64,000 nucleotides of DNA from Dehalococcoidia bacterium (GTDB taxonomy: Bacteria; Chloroflexota; Dehalococcoidia; SM23-28-2; RBG-16-64-32). Position 1 is the stretch's first letter; the number at the start of each line of letters is the position of its first letter. The position numbers were made by a program, and so were the translations under genes. Positions 9,622-48,481 of the stretch are shown here, in pieces. The notes beneath the pieces were generated by a model that worked only from the letters and a program-made list of their open reading frames with translations, searched no databases and was not told where the DNA came from. The DNA is taken from contig JAUSFE010000125.1 in assembly GCA_030649945.1 (NCBI GenBank), forward strand, positions 49,366 to 113,365, written 5' to 3'.

Positions 9622-10929
9622 ATGGAGCCGCGCATCCAGTACACGAAGACGAGCGACGGGGTGAACATCGCGTACGCCGTGTTTGGCGAAGGCCAACCAC
9701 TCGTCTATCCGTCGAACGTATGGGGTGACATCCATTGGTATCTGCACAACGAAGCCACGCGCAGGGAGATGAACCGTCTCGCCGCGTCAGGTTGGCGAAT
9801 TGCGAGGTATGACGGTCGCGGCATGGGCTCCTCCGACCGCGACGTGAGCGACTTCTGCCTGGAGGCCAGGCTGCGCGATCTAGAAACCGTGATCGACGTC
9901 GCGGGACTTGAGCGCTTCGTGCTCTGCGGCTACGGCCAAGGAGGACCGGTGGCAATCGCTTATGCCGTCCGTTGTCCCGACCGCGTGTCTCATCTCGTCC
10001 TCGTCAATTCGTTCGCTCAAGGGTCCGCCTACTACCAGACAGTGCCAACGATGCGCGCGCTGGCCGGAATGCGGGCGATGGCCGAGGATCAATGGGAATT
10101 CTTCACGCTAACGGTTGCGACGGCCGCCGTCGGTTTTGCCGACGGTATTCTCGCCAGGAAAACAGCAGAGTTGTTTCGCAGCGCGATGTCGGCAAAGAGC
10201 TTCCTCTCCTTCGTTGACGCGGCGGAGAAGGTAGATGTGCTCAACCTGCTTCCTGAAGTAACAACGCCTACGCTGGTGGTGCTAGATAGGTCCAGTTTCG
10301 TCACAGGGGACTTGTCCCGAGACCTCGCCACACGCATTCCCGGTGCCCGGCTCGTAGCAACTGACGACTACCCTCAGGAATTGCACTCGTTCGTCCGCGG
10401 CCAAACGCTAGCGCCCGGCGAGCTCGTGGGCGCCCCGTCCGGCACCGCGATCATCCTCTTCGCCGATATCGTCGACTCCACCGCCCTCACCGAGCGCCTG
10501 GGCGACACTGCGTTCCGGGGGAAGGCGCGCGAGCTGGACACCGCGCTGCGGACGATCATCCGCGAGAACAGCGGCACGCCAATCGAAGGCAAACTGCTGG
10601 GCGACGGCGTGCTGGCGGTGTTTACGTCGGCGAGGCAGGCGATTGAGGCGGCGCTGCGCTGCGGGAAGGCAGGAGACGAGGCCGGGCTCCCACTCCACCT
10701 CGGCATCCACGCCGGCGACGTCATCCGCGAGGAGAACAACGTCTACGGCGGCGCGGTGAACATCGCCTCGCGCATCTCGGGCCTCTCGGCGCCGGGCGAG
10801 GTGCTGGTGTCGGAGACGGTGCGGAGCCTCGCGCGCACGTCGGCGGGCGTGCGGTTCGAAGACCGGGGAGAGCACGAGTTGAAGGGCGTCGCCGACCCGC
10901 AGCGGGTGTTCGCGGTGAGGCAGGCGTGA
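9622..10929 (+). CDS. Alpha/beta-hydrolase-like + class III nucleotidyl cyclase fusion, paralog 1
   Basis: N-term MEPRIQYTKTSDGVNIAYAVFGEG...DGRGMGSSD; C-term IILFADIVDSTALTERLGD...KLLGDGVLAVF...YGGAVNIASRISG. Confidence 0.9.
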   Translation: MEPRIQYTKTSDGVNIAYAVFGEGQPLVYPSNVWGDIHWYLHNEATRREMNRLAASGWRIARYDGRGMGSSDRDVSDFCLEARLRDLETVIDVAGLERFVLCGYGQGGPVAIAYAVRCPDRVSHLVLVNSFAQGSAYYQTVPTMRALAGMRAMAEDQWEFFTLTVATAAVGFADGILARKTAELFRSAMSAKSFLSFVDAAEKVDVLNLLPEVTTPTLVVLDRSSFVTGDLSRDLATRIPGARLVATDDYPQELHSFVRGQTLAPGELVGAPSGTAIILFADIVDSTALTERLGDTAFRGKARELDTALRTIIRENSGTPIEGKLLGDGVLAVFTSARQAIEAALRCGKAGDEAGLPLHLGIHAGDVIREENNVYGGAVNIASRISGLSAPGEVLVSETVRSLARTSAGVRFEDRGEHELKGVADPQRVFAVRQA

Positions 10930-12242
10930 TGGAACCGCAGATCCGCTTTTGCACCAGCGCCGACGGCACACGCATCGCCTATGCCGTGCTGGGCGAAGGG
11001 CCCGCCACTCCCGTCATCTGCGTAAACAGCTGGGCCTGGACAATTGAGGCGATAATGACTCAGCCGGCGGAGCGGGCGCGTCTAGCGGACCTGGCGGAAC
11101 GGCACCAGGTCGTCACCTTCGACAATCGTGGAACCGGTGCTTCGGAGCGGGAGCCCTCAGAACTCTCGCTGGAGTCACGTGTGGCCGACCTGGGGGCCGT
11201 AGCAGACCGGCTGGGATGGCCGCGATTCCACCTCGTTGGATACGGCGACGGTGGTGCGACTGCGGCCGCCTATACTGCTCGGAACCCCGAGCGAGTCGCT
11301 CGCCTCGTGCTTTTTTCGCCGTGCGCGAGGGGCGACAGTAACTCTGAGCGAATGACTCAACTCATCCACGAGAACTGGTCCTGGGCGCGCAGAATGATCG
11401 CTTCACTTATGTTTCCTAACGGTCCCGCCGAAATGCAACGCTGGACCTCCTCGACGCTTCGTCAATCGATGAGTCCCAACTTGGCGGCCAGGGCTTTAGA
11501 GCTCAACGCCACGCTCGATATCGCCGATCTACTGCCGCGAGTGCAAGCGCCCACACTCGTACTCAACTTTCGCGACGGACCCGGCATGCCCGAGGGGCGA
11601 GAGGTGGCCGCGCTGATCCCGGATGCGCGCTTCCATGTACTCCCAGGGGAGTACGCGTCAGTGTTCGCAGGCGCCGACGAGCTCATACGAGCAATCAGAG
11701 AATTCCTCGATGAGGGCACTGAAGCGAGAGGGCCGGATATCCCCTCCGGCACCGCCGTCATCCTCTTCGCCGACATCGTCGACTCCACCGCGCTCACCGA
11801 GCGCCTCGGCGACACTGCCTTCCGCGAGAAGGCCCGCGAACTCGACGGGGCGCTGCGCACCGTCATCCGCGAGAACGGCGGCACCCCCATCGACGGCAAG
11901 CTCCTCGGCGACGGCGTGCTGGCCGTCTTCACCTCCGCCCGCCAGGCGATCGAAGCCGCGCTGCGCTGCGGGAAGGCGGGCGGCAACGCCGGGCTGCCGC
12001 TGCACCTCGGCCTCCACGCCGGCGATGTCATCCGCGAGGAGAACAACGTCTATGGCGGCGCGGTGAACATCGCGTCGCGCATCTCGGGGCTCTCGGCGCC
12101 GGGCGAGGTGCTGGTGTCGGAGACGGTGCGGAGCCTCGCGCGCACGTCGGCGGGGGTGCGCTTCGAGGACCGCGGCGAGCAGGCGCTGAAGGGCGTGGGG
12201 GAGCCGCTGCGGGTGTGGGCGGTGGTCGAGGGTGGGGTGTGA
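10929..12242 (+). CDS. Alpha/beta-hydrolase-like + class III nucleotidyl cyclase fusion, paralog 2
   Basis: MEPQIRFCTSADGTRIAYAVLGEG...; near-identical cyclase module; ATGA overlap with paralog 1. Confidence 0.9.
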   Translation: MEPQIRFCTSADGTRIAYAVLGEGPATPVICVNSWAWTIEAIMTQPAERARLADLAERHQVVTFDNRGTGASEREPSELSLESRVADLGAVADRLGWPRFHLVGYGDGGATAAAYTARNPERVARLVLFSPCARGDSNSERMTQLIHENWSWARRMIASLMFPNGPAEMQRWTSSTLRQSMSPNLAARALELNATLDIADLLPRVQAPTLVLNFRDGPGMPEGREVAALIPDARFHVLPGEYASVFAGADELIRAIREFLDEGTEARGPDIPSGTAVILFADIVDSTALTERLGDTAFREKARELDGALRTVIRENGGTPIDGKLLGDGVLAVFTSARQAIEAALRCGKAGGNAGLPLHLGLHAGDVIREENNVYGGAVNIASRISGLSAPGEVLVSETVRSLARTSAGVRFEDRGEQALKGVGEPLRVWAVVEGGV

Positions 12243-13570
12243 TGGAGCCGCGCATCCAGTACGCGAAGACGACCGATGGGGTGAGTATTGCCTTCTGGAC
12301 GCTGGGAGAGGGCGGCACGCCGCTGGTGATGACGTCGCCGCTGTCCTTCAGCAACATCTCTCTCGAGTGGCGGATCCCGGAGCTCCGAGCCTGGTACGAG
12401 CGTCTAGCCGGCGGCGGGATGGTGGTTCGATTCGACTGGAGAAACATGGGGATGTCGGAGCGAGGTGTGGTCGTTCGGGCTGATATCGAACAACGCGCCT
12501 CCGATTTCGAATCGGTGGTCGAGGAGCTCGGCCTTGAAACCTTCAACCTTCTCGCGTTCGGTGGACCCGGACTGCTCACCTTCCCCTACCTGGCTCACCA
12601 CCCAGACCACGTCTCGCGACTTGTGCTGTGGTCGACACTGATACGCGGATGGGTCGATAGCCCGGCGCTTTTATCCCTTGCTCAGACGGACTGGGACCTC
12701 GTGGTGGAGACTTTCGCGCACACTCAGATAGGCTGGGGAGTGGGAGGCGAGGCGCACGAGTGGGCGGAGTTCATTCGGGCAAGCATCACCCAGTCCGACT
12801 TCGTTCGCCTCTTTGAAGTGGTGCTGGAGATGGACGCCTCGCCATACTTGGAGCGCGTCGGAGCAAAGACTCTAGTGCTTTACCAGCCGCCCAGAACACT
12901 CTTCGAGGTCAACGCGCGCGAGCTGGCGACGCGAATTCCTGACGCTGAGATCGTCCGCCTGAACGAAGGGCCATTCGCCTCCTACCTGCACGAAGAGGGG
13001 AAACGGGTCACGGAGGAGTTCCTGGGGATCGCACCCGAGACTGCGCAGGCGGCGGAGACAATCCTTGCGCAGGGCATGCTGGCCGTCCTCTTCGCCGACA
13101 TCGCGGACTCCACCGCGCTCACCGAGCGCCTCGGCGACGCCGCGTTCCGCGCCAAGGCCCGCGACCTCGACGGCGCGCTGCGGGCGGCGATCCGCGAGAA
13201 CGCTGGCACGCCCATCGAGGGCAAGCTCCTGGGCGACGGCGTGCTGGCGGTGTTCACGAGCGCGCGGCAGGCCATCGAGGCGGCGCTCGCCTGCGGCCGG
13301 GCAGGAGACGAGGCCGGCCTCCCCCTACATCTCGGCCTCCACGCCGGCGACGTGATCCGCGAGGAGAACAACGTTTACGGCGGCGCCGTCAACATCGCCT
13401 CGCGCATCAGCGGGCTGTCGGCGCCGGGCGAGGTGCTGGTGTCGGAGACGGTGCGCTCGCTCGCGCGCACGTCGGCCGGCGTGCGGTTCGAGGACAGGGG
13501 AGAGCAGTCGCTGAAGGGCATTGGTGAGCTGGTTCGGATGTGGATGGTGCGGGAGGGGGAGGCGCCGTGA
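12242..13570 (+). CDS. Alpha/beta-hydrolase-like + class III nucleotidyl cyclase fusion, paralog 3
   Basis: MEPRIQYAKTTDGVSIAFWTLGEGG...; near-identical cyclase module; ATGA overlap with paralog 2. Confidence 0.9.
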   Translation: MEPRIQYAKTTDGVSIAFWTLGEGGTPLVMTSPLSFSNISLEWRIPELRAWYERLAGGGMVVRFDWRNMGMSERGVVVRADIEQRASDFESVVEELGLETFNLLAFGGPGLLTFPYLAHHPDHVSRLVLWSTLIRGWVDSPALLSLAQTDWDLVVETFAHTQIGWGVGGEAHEWAEFIRASITQSDFVRLFEVVLEMDASPYLERVGAKTLVLYQPPRTLFEVNARELATRIPDAEIVRLNEGPFASYLHEEGKRVTEEFLGIAPETAQAAETILAQGMLAVLFADIADSTALTERLGDAAFRAKARDLDGALRAAIRENAGTPIEGKLLGDGVLAVFTSARQAIEAALACGRAGDEAGLPLHLGLHAGDVIREENNVYGGAVNIASRISGLSAPGEVLVSETVRSLARTSAGVRFEDRGEQSLKGIGELVRMWMVREGEAP

Positions 13571-37725: not shown

Positions 37726-38559
37726 ATGGCCAGGATTGAACAACTGAAACTCGCGGGATCGAATAGAGCGCTGCTGCTGCTCGCGCTGATAGCCGGTCTA
37801 GTAGCCGCGGTCGTGGTCTTCATCGCCGTGAGCAACGGCGGAGACGATAACGCGAACCCGGCGGGTGTGTCTGATAACGTGACTAGCGCCCTGATCGCCA
37901 CGCAAAGTATTTCAGTGGGAACGGAGATCACCAGCGACATGGTGAAGATCGTTAGTGTACCGAACGACCTGCTGGTGTCAGGGGCGTACGCCGACTCTGA
38001 ACTGGTCGTCGGGGACGTGGCCAGGGTCGCGATCGCCCAGGGCGAACAGATAACCAGCAACAAGGTCGGCATCGCCGTGCCGGACAAGGGGCTTTCGGGC
38101 GTTCTCCCGCTGGGCATGCGCGCAATCGGCGTCAATGTGGAGCAAGTAACCGCGGTGGGCGGGCTGCTTCTCCCGGGCGATCATGTGGACATCGTTGCCA
38201 CCTACAAGATAAAGCGAGCGCCAGGTCTGGCCGAGGACGAGTACATCCTTCGCACGGAGACCATACTGCAGAACGTAGAGATCCTCTCGGTCGGGCAGGA
38301 GGCGCAAGAGGCCTCCGCTCGGATCGACACCTCTGCCGACCCGAGCACAACCAACCCGAGCTACACCAGCGGTGATCTTCCAGACAACGTTGAAGAGCAG
38401 CCCAGGGCCAACACGATCACGGTCGCGCTGAGTCTTGCTGACGCGCAGTTGCTGATCTCGTTTCAACAGCGCGCCGATCAGGTCTGGGCCGCGGAACGCG
38501 CATTTGGTGAAACGGCGCGGGCTGAGATTCCGCCGCACGAAGTGATTCTGGTCGAGTAG
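37726..38559 (+). CDS. cpaB: Flp pilus assembly protein CpaB/RcpC
   Basis: TQSISVGTEITSDMVKIVSVPNDLL..., VLPLGMRAIGVNVEQVTAVGGLLLPGDHVDIVATYK. Confidence 0.9.
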   Translation: MARIEQLKLAGSNRALLLLALIAGLVAAVVVFIAVSNGGDDNANPAGVSDNVTSALIATQSISVGTEITSDMVKIVSVPNDLLVSGAYADSELVVGDVARVAIAQGEQITSNKVGIAVPDKGLSGVLPLGMRAIGVNVEQVTAVGGLLLPGDHVDIVATYKIKRAPGLAEDEYILRTETILQNVEILSVGQEAQEASARIDTSADPSTTNPSYTSGDLPDNVEEQPRANTITVALSLADAQLLISFQQRADQVWAAERAFGETARAEIPPHEVILVE

Positions 38560-38598
38560 TGATCTTCAGGCGCGAGAATAAGAAGGGAATGGGGACGC

Positions 38599-39837
38599 AT
38601 GGCCAGGGTTCCTGAAGTCCTGATCGTTGACCAGGACCCGGCAGCCCGGTTCGAGGTGAAGCAGCTCGTCCGCGGGGCCCAGCTGGGGTTCGCCGGCGAG
38701 GCCGGCCTTGGCACGGAGGCGGTCTCGCTCGCCAGCGAAGCGAAGCCGGACGTCATCATCTGCGGGATGAGCCGCCCACCCGCGCGCTCGCTGCAGACGA
38801 TCGAGGCTCTGCTCGACGTGCTGCCCGAGACCCCGATTATCGCGTACGCCCGCGAGGAAGAAGTGGACGTAGTGCGCCAGGCGATGCTGGCCGGCGCGCG
38901 CGATTTCTTCCAGATCCCGGCGGAGGTCGAGCGTCTCGTAGATTCGATACGCTCGGTGCTCGAATCTGAAGAGCGCAAACGCCTGCGGCTGTCGGGTCAG
39001 TCGAAGGGCATCGGGCCCAAGGGCCTCGTGATCGCCATCTTCGGCGCCAAGGGCGGCGTCGGCAAGACCACGATCGCCACCAACCTTGGCCTCGCGCTGG
39101 CCGGCAACCTCGGCCAGTCGGTCGTGCTCGTGGACGGAGACAACAGCTTCGGTGATGTCGCGGCGATGCTGGATATGCGCCCGGACCGCAGCGTCGTCGA
39201 CTTCATCCGCGACACTGACAAGATCGACAGGACCAACGTCACCGAATACTTGATGCGCCACCCGAGCGGCCTCTGGGTCTTGCCTGCGCCCCGCGAGAGC
39301 CTGATGTGGCGGTCGGTGTCACCGGACGCCTTCCGCAAAGTGCTCAACATAGTCGCACGCCGGTTCGACATCGTGCTGGTGGACTCCGCAGCGATGCTCA
39401 GCGATCTGGCGTTGGCGATCCTGGACGAGGCCAACATGGTGCTCTGGGTGACCTCCACTGACTTCTCCAGCATCAACAACTCGCTCCTCGGGTTGGAGGC
39501 GCTGCAGCAGATCTCTTATCCCGAAGCGCGCATCCGCCTCGTACTGAACGTGACTTCACCAGATGACGGCGTCCGGCCGGCCAAGATCGAAACAGTGCTG
39601 AAGCGGGACTTCTTCTGGTCCATCCCGTATGACAGGGATATCCGGATCGGGGCCCAAGTGGGCAACGCGGCGGTAATCGCGAGCCCGGGCGGCAACGGCG
39701 CGCGCACCCTGATTCAACTCGCCCAGGCCCTTACCGGCGGCAGCGCCCCGGCAGCGCCGCGCCCGACTCGATCGTTCAGATTTTTCAAGCGTCGGGAACC
39801 AGCACCAGAGCCCGTTGTAGAGCAGGAGGGGGGATAA
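38599..39837 (+). CDS. CpaE/TadZ-like pilus ATPase with receiver-like N-terminus
   Basis: VIAIFGAKGGVGKTTIATNLGLALA, LVDGDNSFGDVAAMLDMRPDRSVVDF; receiver-like N-term. Confidence 0.9.
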   Translation: MARVPEVLIVDQDPAARFEVKQLVRGAQLGFAGEAGLGTEAVSLASEAKPDVIICGMSRPPARSLQTIEALLDVLPETPIIAYAREEEVDVVRQAMLAGARDFFQIPAEVERLVDSIRSVLESEERKRLRLSGQSKGIGPKGLVIAIFGAKGGVGKTTIATNLGLALAGNLGQSVVLVDGDNSFGDVAAMLDMRPDRSVVDFIRDTDKIDRTNVTEYLMRHPSGLWVLPAPRESLMWRSVSPDAFRKVLNIVARRFDIVLVDSAAMLSDLALAILDEANMVLWVTSTDFSSINNSLLGLEALQQISYPEARIRLVLNVTSPDDGVRPAKIETVLKRDFFWSIPYDRDIRIGAQVGNAAVIASPGGNGARTLIQLAQALTGGSAPAAPRPTRSFRFFKRREPAPEPVVEQEGG

Positions 39838-39841
39838 ACAC

Positions 39842-41212
39842 ATGGTGTCGCCAAAGCAACAGGAAGATAAACCAGAATCGGAATGGACCATACCGTCCCG
39901 GCTGACCGACCAGGTCGCCGTCAATGACTTCGCCCCCCTGTCCGCTGAAGACGAAGAGGTAGTGCAGAAGGTGCACACCCGAGTCATCCAGGACATGGAT
40001 CTGTCCGCGGTCGAGCGTCTCGGACCATCGCGAGGGCGCGAGGCTATCGAACAGGGCGTACGGACACTTCTAGCCGAAGTCGCTGCGCACCTCTACGGGG
40101 AGCGCAAGGAGATGGTCATCCGGCGCGTAATAGACGACGCCGTTGGCCTCGGCCCGCTGGAGCCGCTCATCCAGGACAAGTCGATCTCCGAGGTCATGGT
40201 CAACGCCCCGGACGAGATCTACTTCGAGCGCGACGGCATCATCTATCTGTCTGCGCTGCGATTCCGCAACGTGGACCACATCATGCTCGTCATCGACCGA
40301 ATCATCTCGCCGCTCGGGCGGCGCGTGGACGAGTCGTCGCCATTCGTGGACGCCCGCCTGCCCGACGGTTCGCGTGTCAATATCATCATTCCGCCGCTAA
40401 TACCCCGCTCGCCGGTCGTCACCATCCGCAAGTTCCGCCCCGACAAGTACTCCATGGAGGACCTCGTCGGGAACGGCACGCTGACCCCGGAGGTGTGCGA
40501 CTTCCTGCGTGCCAGCGTGCAACTGCGCCTGAACATGGTGATCTCCGGCGGAAGCGGTACCGGCAAGACCACCGTGCTGAACGCGCTCTCCGCATTCATC
40601 CCAGAGCGTGAGCGCATCGTGACCATCGAAGACCCCATCGAGCTCAAGCTCCAGCAGCGTCACGTCATCAGCGCGGAGGCCCGGCCGCCCAACATCGAGG
40701 GCAAGAACGAAGTGACGCAGCGCGACTTGCTGCGAAACACCCTGCGCATGCGCCCGGACCGCATCATCGTCGGCGAGGTGCGTGGACCGGAAGCGTTCGA
40801 CATGATGCAGGCGATGAATACCGGCCACGAAGGATCCCTCACGACCGTGCACGCGAACTCCTCCCGCGACGCGCTGGCGCGAATCGAGAACATGGTCCTC
40901 ATGGCGGGCTTCGACCTCCCGACGCGTGCAATCCGCGAGCAGATGGCGGCAGCCTTCCACCTGATCATTCACCTCGCGCGGTTCGCGGACGGCGCTCGCC
41001 GCATCATCAACATCAGCGAGGTCGTCGGTATGGAAGAGGCCACCGTCACGATGCAGGACCTCTTCGTGTTCGAAACGACATCGATCGCCGAGGACGGCCG
41101 GATCATGGGCGAACTCACGAGCACGGGAATCGTTCCCACGTTCGCCGACCGGTTCGCCAAGGCCGGGGTGCCGCTGGAGTCCATCCTGCCGAACATTGGC
41201 CGGTGGGCCTGA
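39842..41212 (+). CDS. cpaF: CpaF/TadA secretion ATPase
   Basis: [84 protein letters not shown]. Confidence 0.96.
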
Positions 41213-42183
41213 TGACCCTGGCGATCATCGCGTCCACCCTGGCGTTCGTGGCAGTCGCCGCGCTAATTCTGGCCGTCACCTCGATTTCGCCAGCCAGACG
41301 CGCAGAGGCTCGCCTCTCACGCCTGGACCGGACAAAGGAAAAGGAATCGACGCCAGTAGAGAACGTCCTGCGGACGGACACTGGCACGTTCCCACTACTG
41401 CGCGGTTTCACCACCGGAAACGCCTGGTCCGCCCGGACGGCGCAAGACCTGGCCCAGGCGGGCTGGGGTCTCAAGGTCAGCGAGTACCTCCTCATCAGGA
41501 TATTCGCCGCCGCCGCCGCACTGATCCTCGGCGCCCTGTTGTTGGGTAGCGCAGGCCCGGGAGGTGTGCTCATCGCGATAATCCTGGGCGCAGTTGGCTT
41601 TATGCTCCCCGCCGTGCTACTGCGCTACTACCGCTCGCGCAGGCAGCGGGCGATCAACGGCCAGCTGGCGGAGATGCTATCGCTGCTCTCGAACTCACTC
41701 CGGTCCGGATTTGCCTTCACGCAGGCCGTGGAACTCGCGGCGAAGCAGCTGGGCCCTCCGATTACTCAGGAGTTGGAGCGCTTCTTACACGACATCTCTC
41801 TCGGAGCGCCGACCGATGTCGCCCTGCAGCAGATGGCCGACCGCACCGGCAGCTACGACCTCGACATGATGGTTTCGAGCATTATGATCCAACGCAACAC
41901 CGGCGGCAATCTCTCCGAGATCCTGGACAACGTCGCGGACACGATCCGCGAACGAGAGCGGCTCCAGGGAGAGATCCGCGCCTTGACGTCCTCGCAGCGA
42001 TTTACGGGTTTAGTGCTCTCTGTCTATCCCATATTCCTGGGGGCCCTGTTCTTCGCTCTGGCGCCGGGGACCTGGAAGGTGCTCTTCGAATCAGAGCTGG
42101 GGCGCATTCTGCTCATCTCGGCCGCTACGCTGCAGGTGATGGGGATGATAACCATTCGCCGCATTCTGGCGCTGGAAGTGTAG
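41203..42183 (+). CDS. tadB: TadB, type II secretion F family
   Basis: LAEMLSLLSNSLRSGFAFTQAVELAAKQLGPPITQELERFLHDISLGAPTDVALQQMADRTGSYDLDMMVSSIMIQRNTGGNLSEILDNVADTIRER. Confidence 0.93.
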   Translation: MGLMTLAIIASTLAFVAVAALILAVTSISPARRAEARLSRLDRTKEKESTPVENVLRTDTGTFPLLRGFTTGNAWSARTAQDLAQAGWGLKVSEYLLIRIFAAAAALILGALLLGSAGPGGVLIAIILGAVGFMLPAVLLRYYRSRRQRAINGQLAEMLSLLSNSLRSGFAFTQAVELAAKQLGPPITQELERFLHDISLGAPTDVALQQMADRTGSYDLDMMVSSIMIQRNTGGNLSEILDNVADTIRERERLQGEIRALTSSQRFTGLVLSVYPIFLGALFFALAPGTWKVLFESELGRILLISAATLQVMGMITIRRILALEV

Positions 42184-42195
42184 GGGGGTGATTCC

Positions 42196-43095
42196 ATGCT
42201 CGCATTGATCGCTGCCGTCGCCGCTTTCGTCTCGGCTAGCTCGCTGCTGGCCTGGTTTGGCGGCGCGATGCGGAACCCCGTCGAGGCCCGGATTTCCAGG
42301 CTCGCGCCTGTCGGATCTAGTTCGGCGATGAAGGCCCCCTTTTCCGACCGCGTTTTCATGCCGGTGCTGGATGGCCTCACCAGCGGGCTGATCCAGCTGC
42401 TGCCGCACAGGTTCGTGTCGCGCGTAAGCCGTCAGCTCCTCGCCGCCGGCTCACCCATGACCACGCAGGCATTCTTCACCCTGGCCTTGCTGTGCGGGCT
42501 GGCCTTTCCGGCTGCAGGGCTCTTCTTCCTCGCACGTTCCTCCGATGGGGTCGCCGGCTGGATGATCGTCGTCGCCGCCTTCCTGGCCTTCGCAGGGTTC
42601 ATCGTGCCGTACACGTGGCTTCGGAGGCGTGTGCGCCTACGCAAGCTCACAATCTGGAGGCGGCTTGCCGATGTGTTCGACATGGTGACGGTGTGCGTGG
42701 AGGCCGGCCTGGGCCTGGATGCCGCGATGAGACAGGTGGCAGCAAAGCTGAAGGGCCCCTTTTCCGACGAGATTTCCTTGATGCTCCGGCAGGTTGGCAT
42801 GGGCCGGCCGCGCCGCGAGGCTCTTGAGGACCTGGCGTATCGTGTGGACGTGCCCGAAGTGACAACGTTCGTGCATGCCATCGTACAGGCCGAGCAGCTT
42901 GGGACCAGCCTTGGACGCGTCCTCCGGGCGCAAAGCCTGAGCCTGCGCGTCCGCCGCCGGCAAAAGGCGGAGGAGATGGCGCGCCGCGCCCCGGTGAAGA
43001 TGGTGTTCCCGCTGGTGCTCTTCATCATGCCCACCTTCTTCATCGTGACAATCGGCCCGATGTTCGTCCATCTGACGGAGTACCTGAAGGACTAA
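42196..43095 (+). CDS. tadC: TadC, type II secretion F family
   Basis: RLADVFDMVTVCVEAGLGLDAAMRQVAAKLKGPFSDEISLMLRQVGMGRPRREALEDLAYRVDVPEVTTFVHAIVQAEQLGTSLGRVLRAQS. Confidence 0.93.
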   Translation: MLALIAAVAAFVSASSLLAWFGGAMRNPVEARISRLAPVGSSSAMKAPFSDRVFMPVLDGLTSGLIQLLPHRFVSRVSRQLLAAGSPMTTQAFFTLALLCGLAFPAAGLFFLARSSDGVAGWMIVVAAFLAFAGFIVPYTWLRRRVRLRKLTIWRRLADVFDMVTVCVEAGLGLDAAMRQVAAKLKGPFSDEISLMLRQVGMGRPRREALEDLAYRVDVPEVTTFVHAIVQAEQLGTSLGRVLRAQSLSLRVRRRQKAEEMARRAPVKMVFPLVLFIMPTFFIVTIGPMFVHLTEYLKD

Positions 43096-47140: not shown

Positions 47141-48481
47141 CTACTCCCGCCACCTCACCTCGAAGACGCGCACCGGCTCCTCGAACCCCTTCATCACGTG
47201 CTCACCCAGCTCCGCGAACAGGAAGCCCTTGCCCGCGCACAGCTCCCGTACCGCCAGCGACGCCAGGATCTCCCCGCCCTCCGCTTTCGCCGCGATGCGT
47301 GAAGCGAGGATGACGGTCTCGCCGAACAGATCGCCATCCTCCTCGATCGGCTCCCCGGCGTTAAGGCCGACGCGGATGTGCAACGGCTCGGCCCCGCTCT
47401 CGTTGCGCTCCGCGAACCGCTGCTGGAGGGCCACCGCGCACTCCACGGCCCTGGTGACCGACCCGAACGAGGCCATGAAGCCGTCGCCCATGGTCTTGAC
47501 CTCAGCGCCGCCGTGCGCCGCCAGCGCCTCCCGCGTGATCCTCTCGTGCTCCCGCAGCACCGCGCGCCCCTTCTCGTCGCCCAGGCGGCGCATCATGCTG
47601 GTGTGGTCGACGAGGTCGGTGAAGAGGATGGTGACGAGACCACCGGCCGGTGTCGATGCGGCCTTCACGGGTGCGGGCACTTGCTCGCCCTCCCGCAGGA
47701 ACTCGTCGATAGCGGCCGCAGAGTCCTCCGTGACGACGAAGCGGGCGGCGGCGATGTGCGGCGCGAGCTTCTGCGCGAGCGCCGAGAAGTCGCCGAAGGT
47801 GGTCGATGTGTCGCGAACGACGAGGGTCGGCACGGCCACTGAGCGAAGCAGATCTGTCACGTCGATATCTTCAGCGGCGTCGCGATAGGCCAGGAAGGCT
47901 TTAGGCGACATCCCAGCGCGGAACGCAGCCGCCAGGCGGCGCGCAAATTCGCTGTTGGAGAAGGCCGTGAGGGCATTGGCCAGCGCTAGGGTGTAAAACT
48001 CCCACTGGTCCTCCGCGATATGGCGTAGATCTTTGGCCACGCGCATGGACGGTAGCGCTTCGTAATAGTCGGCGCCGCTGGCGAACGAGTTGACCAGGAT
48101 GAGGTGGGACAGGCGCTCGGGGTGCCGGACGGCATAGGAGATCGCGGCCGGGCCGCCTTGAGTAGAACCGCACAGTGCAAAGCGATCGGCTCCAACGGCG
48201 TCTATCACCGCCTCAAGGTCGCGCAGGCGCCCCTCGATGGAGAAGTCGACGGCACTCCGGTCCGACGCCCCCATTCCGCGTCCGTCATAGCGGACGACGC
48301 GCCATCCCCGTTCCACCACGGCGTCGGCCATTCCCACTGAGAGCGCAAGCCCGGCCGACAAGTACAGGTGTATGTCGCCCCAGGCGCCTGCCGGAAACAC
48401 GATCGGCGGCCCCTCGCCAAACACGGCGTAGGCGATGCTAACCCCGTCGCTGGTCTTGGCGTACTGAATTCGCGGCTTCAT
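47141..48481 (-). CDS. Alpha/beta-hydrolase-like + class III nucleotidyl cyclase fusion, paralog 4
   Basis: MKPRIQYAKTSDGVSIAYAVFGEGPPIVFPAGAWGDIH...; TILFTDLVDHTSMMRRLGDEKGRAVLREHERI...GDGFMASF...DLFGETVILASRI. Confidence 0.9.
   Translation of the reverse strand: MKPRIQYAKTSDGVSIAYAVFGEGPPIVFPAGAWGDIHLYLSAGLALSVGMADAVVERGWRVVRYDGRGMGASDRSAVDFSIEGRLRDLEAVIDAVGADRFALCGSTQGGPAAISYAVRHPERLSHLILVNSFASGADYYEALPSMRVAKDLRHIAEDQWEFYTLALANALTAFSNSEFARRLAAAFRAGMSPKAFLAYRDAAEDIDVTDLLRSVAVPTLVVRDTSTTFGDFSALAQKLAPHIAAARFVVTEDSAAAIDEFLREGEQVPAPVKAASTPAGGLVTILFTDLVDHTSMMRRLGDEKGRAVLREHERITREALAAHGGAEVKTMGDGFMASFGSVTRAVECAVALQQRFAERNESGAEPLHIRVGLNAGEPIEEDGDLFGETVILASRIAAKAEGGEILASLAVRELCAGKGFLFAELGEHVMKGFEEPVRVFEVRWRE

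Follow-up and report, generated by a model that had tools for sequence, protein, structure and literature searches.

The closest described relative of the genes reported here is LipJ (Rv1900c), in which an α/β-hydrolase module is fused to a class III cyclase homology domain (CHD) (NCBIfam NF058673; CHD structures 1ybt and 1ybu). We analyzed a 64,000-nucleotide stretch of a Dehalococcoidia draft genome (contig JAUSFE010000125.1, positions 49,366 to 113,365; hereafter the window). It contains three such fusion genes, arranged head to tail on the + strand at 9622-13570. The array proteins resemble LipJ in domain order, length, a full-length profile match of 142-178 bits, and cyclase fold, with an array protein 37-38% identical to 1ybu/1ybt in Foldseek. 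Unlike LipJ, they score far below the 800-bit equivalog cut-off and do not have the nucleophile Ser of the GxSxG motif, which is replaced by Gly in genes 1-3 and by Thr in a fourth fusion of the window (47141-48481, - strand). Their family is also expanded, tandem and module-shuffled. The array probably belongs to an expanded set of soluble receptors, each a single protein, in which pseudo-hydrolase pockets feed a constant cyclase. This reading is built on the architecture, module incongruence, triad loss, pocket variability and intact cyclase residues. The fusion architecture is already known from LipJ/Rv1900c, whereas an array-forming, reshuffled and pocket-diversified repertoire appears to be new. 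We found no description of such tandem fusion arrays in the literature that was searched.

GID1 is a non-catalytic plant receptor with an α/β-hydrolase fold. D14, KAI2 and Striga HTL/KAI2d likewise use the hydrolase fold as a small-molecule receptor, in duplicated copies with differing pockets (e.g. PMC6158167, PMC4705300). The plant receptors signal via partner proteins, and D14 and KAI2 keep the catalytic triad. The array module is instead fused to its cyclase, and its family mostly does not have the triad. The likeness is best taken as analogy, not as family-level homology.

All three genes are open reading frames (ORFs), and matches to Abhydrolase_1 and Guanylate_cyc in each exceed the curated Pfam cut-offs. 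The hydrolase match of gene 3 is barely above its cut-off (26.2 vs 25.8 bits); gene 1 scores 48.3 bits for PF00561 and 43.9 bits for PF00211. The AlphaFold model of gene 1 has two domains (mean pLDDT 92.4), with low confidence in the linker at residues 262-270. Its closest solved folds in Foldseek are the hydrolases 3om8 and 2xua for the N module and the cyclase domains of Ma1120 and Rv1900c for the C module. Pfam, the model and Foldseek agree on a LipJ-like α/β-hydrolase-cyclase architecture, as a sequence-only reading of the window had claimed for three coupled fusions.

The Ser-Asp-His triad of a serine hydrolase is absent from the window genes. Across 123 fusions of the order, 17 different residues occupy the nucleophile position. 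The oxyanion, nucleophile, nucleophile+1, acid and His positions have entropy ranks of 0.88-1.00 among N-module columns, and scaffold residues, e.g. D12, D64, S71 and D86, are invariant across the family. The sequence-only reading had singled out an opening MEPxIxxxxxxDG motif as the conserved part of the N module. The motif is real, but several other scaffold residues are nearly invariant family-wide. All three triad residues are gone in 79 of the 123 fusions. The full triad is found in 18/123, compared to 17/25 among low-copy fusions from the rest of the phylum (Fisher p = 2e-7). A triad-bearing ancestor whose pocket was later freed for recognition fits this picture, but is not proven by it. 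As a control, the genome's stand-alone hydrolases carry Ser at the nucleophile position, or Asp as in dehalogenase-like enzymes; the control matches with neither residue are pieces of the fusions themselves. The loss of the nucleophile and the hypervariability of the former catalytic site had escaped the sequence-only reading.

Triad loss in most copies would also be expected if constraint on the N module were relaxed. The module would then be a dead structural or dimerization domain with unselected active-site positions, and the cyclases would be effectively constitutive or otherwise controlled. The saturated synonymous divergence (dS) and the GC content at third codon positions (GC3) of the N modules, which is low for the window (0.69-0.75 vs a median of 0.89), are consistent with relaxation. 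However, ~120 copies have kept their reading frames and scaffold residues. The variability is also centered on the cleft, which uniform relaxation does not predict. Along the central strands, variability has a mean rank of 0.65 at the C-terminal edges, which form the cleft, but 0.36 at the N-terminal edges. The strand ends were a fixed set taken from the gene 1 model, and a value this high came up in 5 of 252 circular shifts. A 14-position pocket set was picked after the entropies were known, and the conclusions rest on the strand-edge sets and the five fixed catalytic positions. In reciprocal-best pairs without the Ser that are >80% identical, these five positions are 0.95 identical, compared to 0.87 for the rest, which argues that the altered pockets are maintained and not simply decaying. 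The same 9-residue pocket string is present in three genera (g4, g5 and g7). In pairs at 55-80% identity, the five positions differ more than the rest. The strand-edge set also differs in the expected direction between same-genome paralogues and reciprocal-best pairs (p = 5e-4; such p-values are rough because the pairs are non-independent). Relaxed constraint is therefore an unlikely explanation, given the conservation of non-catalytic pocket residues in close orthologues.

Several observations weigh against the receptor reading. The five-position contrast is modest (0.37 in orthologues vs 0.25 in same-genome paralogues, p = 0.04). Saturation of synonymous sites between the N modules precludes any demonstration of dN/dS > 1 in the pockets, and the alignment of loops is imperfect at ~30% identity. 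Eight of the 25 low-copy fusions outside the order are also without the full triad. Judged by their residues, the minority of fusions that keep the triad may hydrolyze a substrate.

This last point leads to a second alternative, in which the N modules sense as active or covalent hydrolases, in the manner of D14/KAI2 or of a LipJ that is truly a lipase-cyclase, and turnover of a hydrolyzed substrate gates the cyclase. NCBIfam calls LipJ a bifunctional lipase/adenylate cyclase, and the triad is kept in most low-copy fusions of the phylum as well as in the 18 members of the order. With Gly at the nucleophile position in genes 1-3 and every triad residue missing from 79 copies, we regard hydrolase sensing as improbable. 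Anti-phage signaling, in which a Pycsar-like cyclase system would use variable N modules to recognize phage or foreign molecules, is hardly credible: it would share the variable sensor and constant output, and the cyclase domains match PycC profiles weakly (E 4e-7 to 4e-4), but such matches are expected from class III cyclase homology by itself, the arrays are many and scattered, and no recognizable effector is found among the adjacent ORFs, the gene directly downstream of the array being short-chain-dehydrogenase-like as judged by sequence. Membership in Pycsar was rejected on these grounds. We also looked for the reverse transcriptase of a diversity-generating retroelement and obtained no RVT_1 match.

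The cyclase modules are intact at their catalytic residues. The two metal-binding Asp residues and the transition-state Arg of class III cyclases (Asp282, Asp328 and Arg384 in gene 1) are invariant in 71/71 copies, as is Lys324 (gene 1 numbering). The best PDB match of the array cyclase is to Ma1120-type class III adenylyl cyclases (4wp3, 5d0e), whose Lys used for ATP is conserved. The second ATP-specifying residue of Ma1120 is Asp157 (PMC4215837). The equivalent purine-site position 373 holds Asn throughout the 22 type-1 modules, the type of gene 1, and Asp throughout the other 49. Compared to the Rv1900c CHD in the alignment, the array has Lys in place of Asn and Asn in place of Asp. These residues suggest that the substrate preference of type-1 cyclases may differ. 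The source genome encodes three proteins that bind cyclic nucleotide monophosphates (cNMPs), compared to 26 cyclase matches, which would make a system of many inputs and few outputs.

Identity between genes 1-3 changes abruptly along their length. Pairwise protein identity is 0.32-0.33 for the N modules and 0.83-0.89 for the C modules. In 40-column windows, it leaps from 0.2-0.4 to 0.8-0.97 at the module junction. The two modules have not diverged equally, and the earlier proposal that the sensor diversified while the output module stayed constant is borne out. The near-identity of the cyclase modules is visible in the DNA as well: genes 1 and 2 have a 101-nt tract in common with ≤2 mismatches, a length reached in 1 of 1000 codon-shuffles (p = 0.001). 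Similar near-identical tracts are found in some other arrays. At fourfold-degenerate sites, identity between type-1 C modules is 0.655 inside an array, 0.546 with the genome's other copies, 0.524 within the genus and 0.497 with other genera. The composition of the copies themselves would give matches of 0.43-0.49 by chance.

Many copies in other genera likewise have C modules that are 80-85% identical in protein sequence, which argues that purifying selection accounts for most of the constancy. Conversion within the array appears to add homogenization. Gene conversion of the output module, as first suggested, is thus supported by the fourfold sites and the 101-nt tract as a homogenizing process within the array, but not as the main cause of the constancy. 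Conversion acting alone was rejected because cross-genus protein identity is nearly as high and the fourfold sites are near chance. GC3 is higher in the C module than in the N module in 67/71 fusions. Biased conversion, codon selection and a different history of the N module are all candidate causes of this gap.

Fusions were gathered by BLAST and hidden Markov model (HMM) searches; ORF picking based on motifs missed most of them. In the trees, C modules from further genera and families in the order group with the window-type ones in a single clade (19 rows, support 98). The N modules of the same fusions are scattered, with 13 label changes, at least 7 of which are forced by strong branches. 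Forcing these N modules into one clade changes the log-likelihood by -387 units (approximately unbiased (AU) test, p ~1e-54). The strong incongruence of the module-wise trees is what the suggested recombination between sensor and output predicts. The fourth fusion gives a local example. Its N module is sister to that of gene 1 (54% identity, compared to 33% between genes 1 and 2), whereas its C module is 39% identical to that of gene 1, belongs to another cyclase type and keeps the purine-site Asp. A gene-1-like N module on a different cyclase type argues that modules have been reshuffled between fusions. Further pairs of sister N modules carry different C types, and the reverse is also found. 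The three sensors had been viewed as diversified duplicates. They are not recently duplicated copies that drifted apart, since the nearest N relatives are joined to different cyclase types or come from different genomes, which points to reassortment of old N lineages.

The array is not isolated. The 3.39 Mb draft source genome, with its 26 PF00211 matches, contains a four-gene fusion array on another contig (C123). Relatives in the family and order have up to ~40 fusion-query matches per genome, many of them tandem; in the order's one single-contig genome there are 18. The genomes compared are draft metagenome-assembled genomes (MAGs), and the source is the only one searched from the window's genus. 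Elsewhere in the phylum, strong full-length matches were found in 20 of 200 sampled genomes, at least 1-3 in each; copy numbers outside the order are lower bounds, as 8 candidates per genome were scored. The named relatives with cyclases >65% identical are all Chloroflexi MAGs. The triplet is thus part of an order-wide expansion in uncultured Chloroflexota, and the view of a coupled triplet as unusual was too narrow, because tandem arrays are common in the surveyed genomes of the order.

Related fusions without the nucleophile Ser are also present in a Solirubrobacteraceae MAG (L209 614-1948) and a Thermoplasmata MAG (L210 3-2144). In the source genome, split, N-only, C-only and cyclase-only fusion pieces are found (C4:37045-38394, C32:155005-155226, C14:19792-19947 and C6:111838-112314), and on C6 a cyclase-only ORF precedes a fusion. 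Such pieces look like decaying copies, as in a family undergoing birth and death.

For the receptor reading we propose the following mechanism. The N module has kept the α/β-hydrolase scaffold and lost the Ser-Asp-His machinery, and the old active-site cleft would have become a variable small-molecule binding pocket. We infer that ligand binding acts allosterically on the fused class III cyclase, which retains its catalytic residues. The changed production of cyclic nucleotides would be read by the few cNMP-binding proteins. The head-to-tail order of variable pocket and constant cyclase could let crossing-over or conversion between cyclases duplicate, delete and re-pair cassettes in frame. Purifying selection together with conversion holds the output constant.

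A broader and more tentative proposal, which we hold possible but would not favor, is that these Chloroflexota possess a combinatorial chemosensory repertoire. Dead hydrolase pockets would be under diversifying selection, carried as exchangeable tandem-array cassettes on a small number of constant cyclase types, of which one may prefer another nucleotide, as a bacterial counterpart of an expanded receptor family. If true, bacteria would offer a clear example of an enzyme fold that became a diversified receptor family, its cyclase output ready-made, and the former catalytic site would be the hypervariable recognition site. The cassette layout suggests that new sensors could be added without rebuilding the output. 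For biosensor design, the family would be a natural collection of sensor-cyclase chimeras, and it would provide a testable model of how the active sites of enzymes turn into binding pockets.

Coordinates of the hydrolase-cyclase fusions and their parts in the window
Feature	Position	Strand	Remarks
Fusion gene 1, 435 aa	9622-10929	+	Open ORF; pseudo-hydrolase N module and class III cyclase C module
Gene 1 N module	9622-10437	+	Gly105 at nucleophile position (GYGQGG); nearest N relative is fusion 47141-48481
Gene 1 C module	10438-10926	+	Type-1 cyclase; Lys324, Asp282, Asp328, Arg384, Asn373
Fusion gene 2, 437 aa	10929-12242	+	Open ORF; Pfam
Gene 2 N module	10929-11744	+	GYGDGG, Gly at nucleophile position
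Gene 2 C module	11745-12239	+	Cyclase
Fusion gene 3, 442 aa	12242-13570	+	Open ORF; Pfam
Gene 3 N module	12242-13069	+	AFGGPG, Gly at nucleophile position
Gene 3 C module	13070-13567	+	Cyclase
Gene 1/gene 2 stop-start overlap	10927-10931	+	TGATG in the sequence
Gene 2/gene 3 stop-start overlap	12240-12244	+	TGATG in the sequence
Conversion-like tract, gene 1	10747-10847	+	Matches ~12054-12154 in gene 2; 101 nt, ≤2 mismatches
Fourth fusion of the window	47141-48481	-	N module akin to gene 1; other cyclase type; Thr at nucleophile position

At both junctions the stop codon TGA and the start codon ATG have one base in common; the overlaps had been read as ATGA, which the sequence does not support. 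An alternative start of gene 2 is possible at GTG 10926. Elsewhere in the window, a Flp/Tad pilus-like cluster is found at 37726-43092 on the + strand, with RcpC/CpaB, a ParA-like ATPase with a receiver domain, T2SSE and two T2SSF genes.
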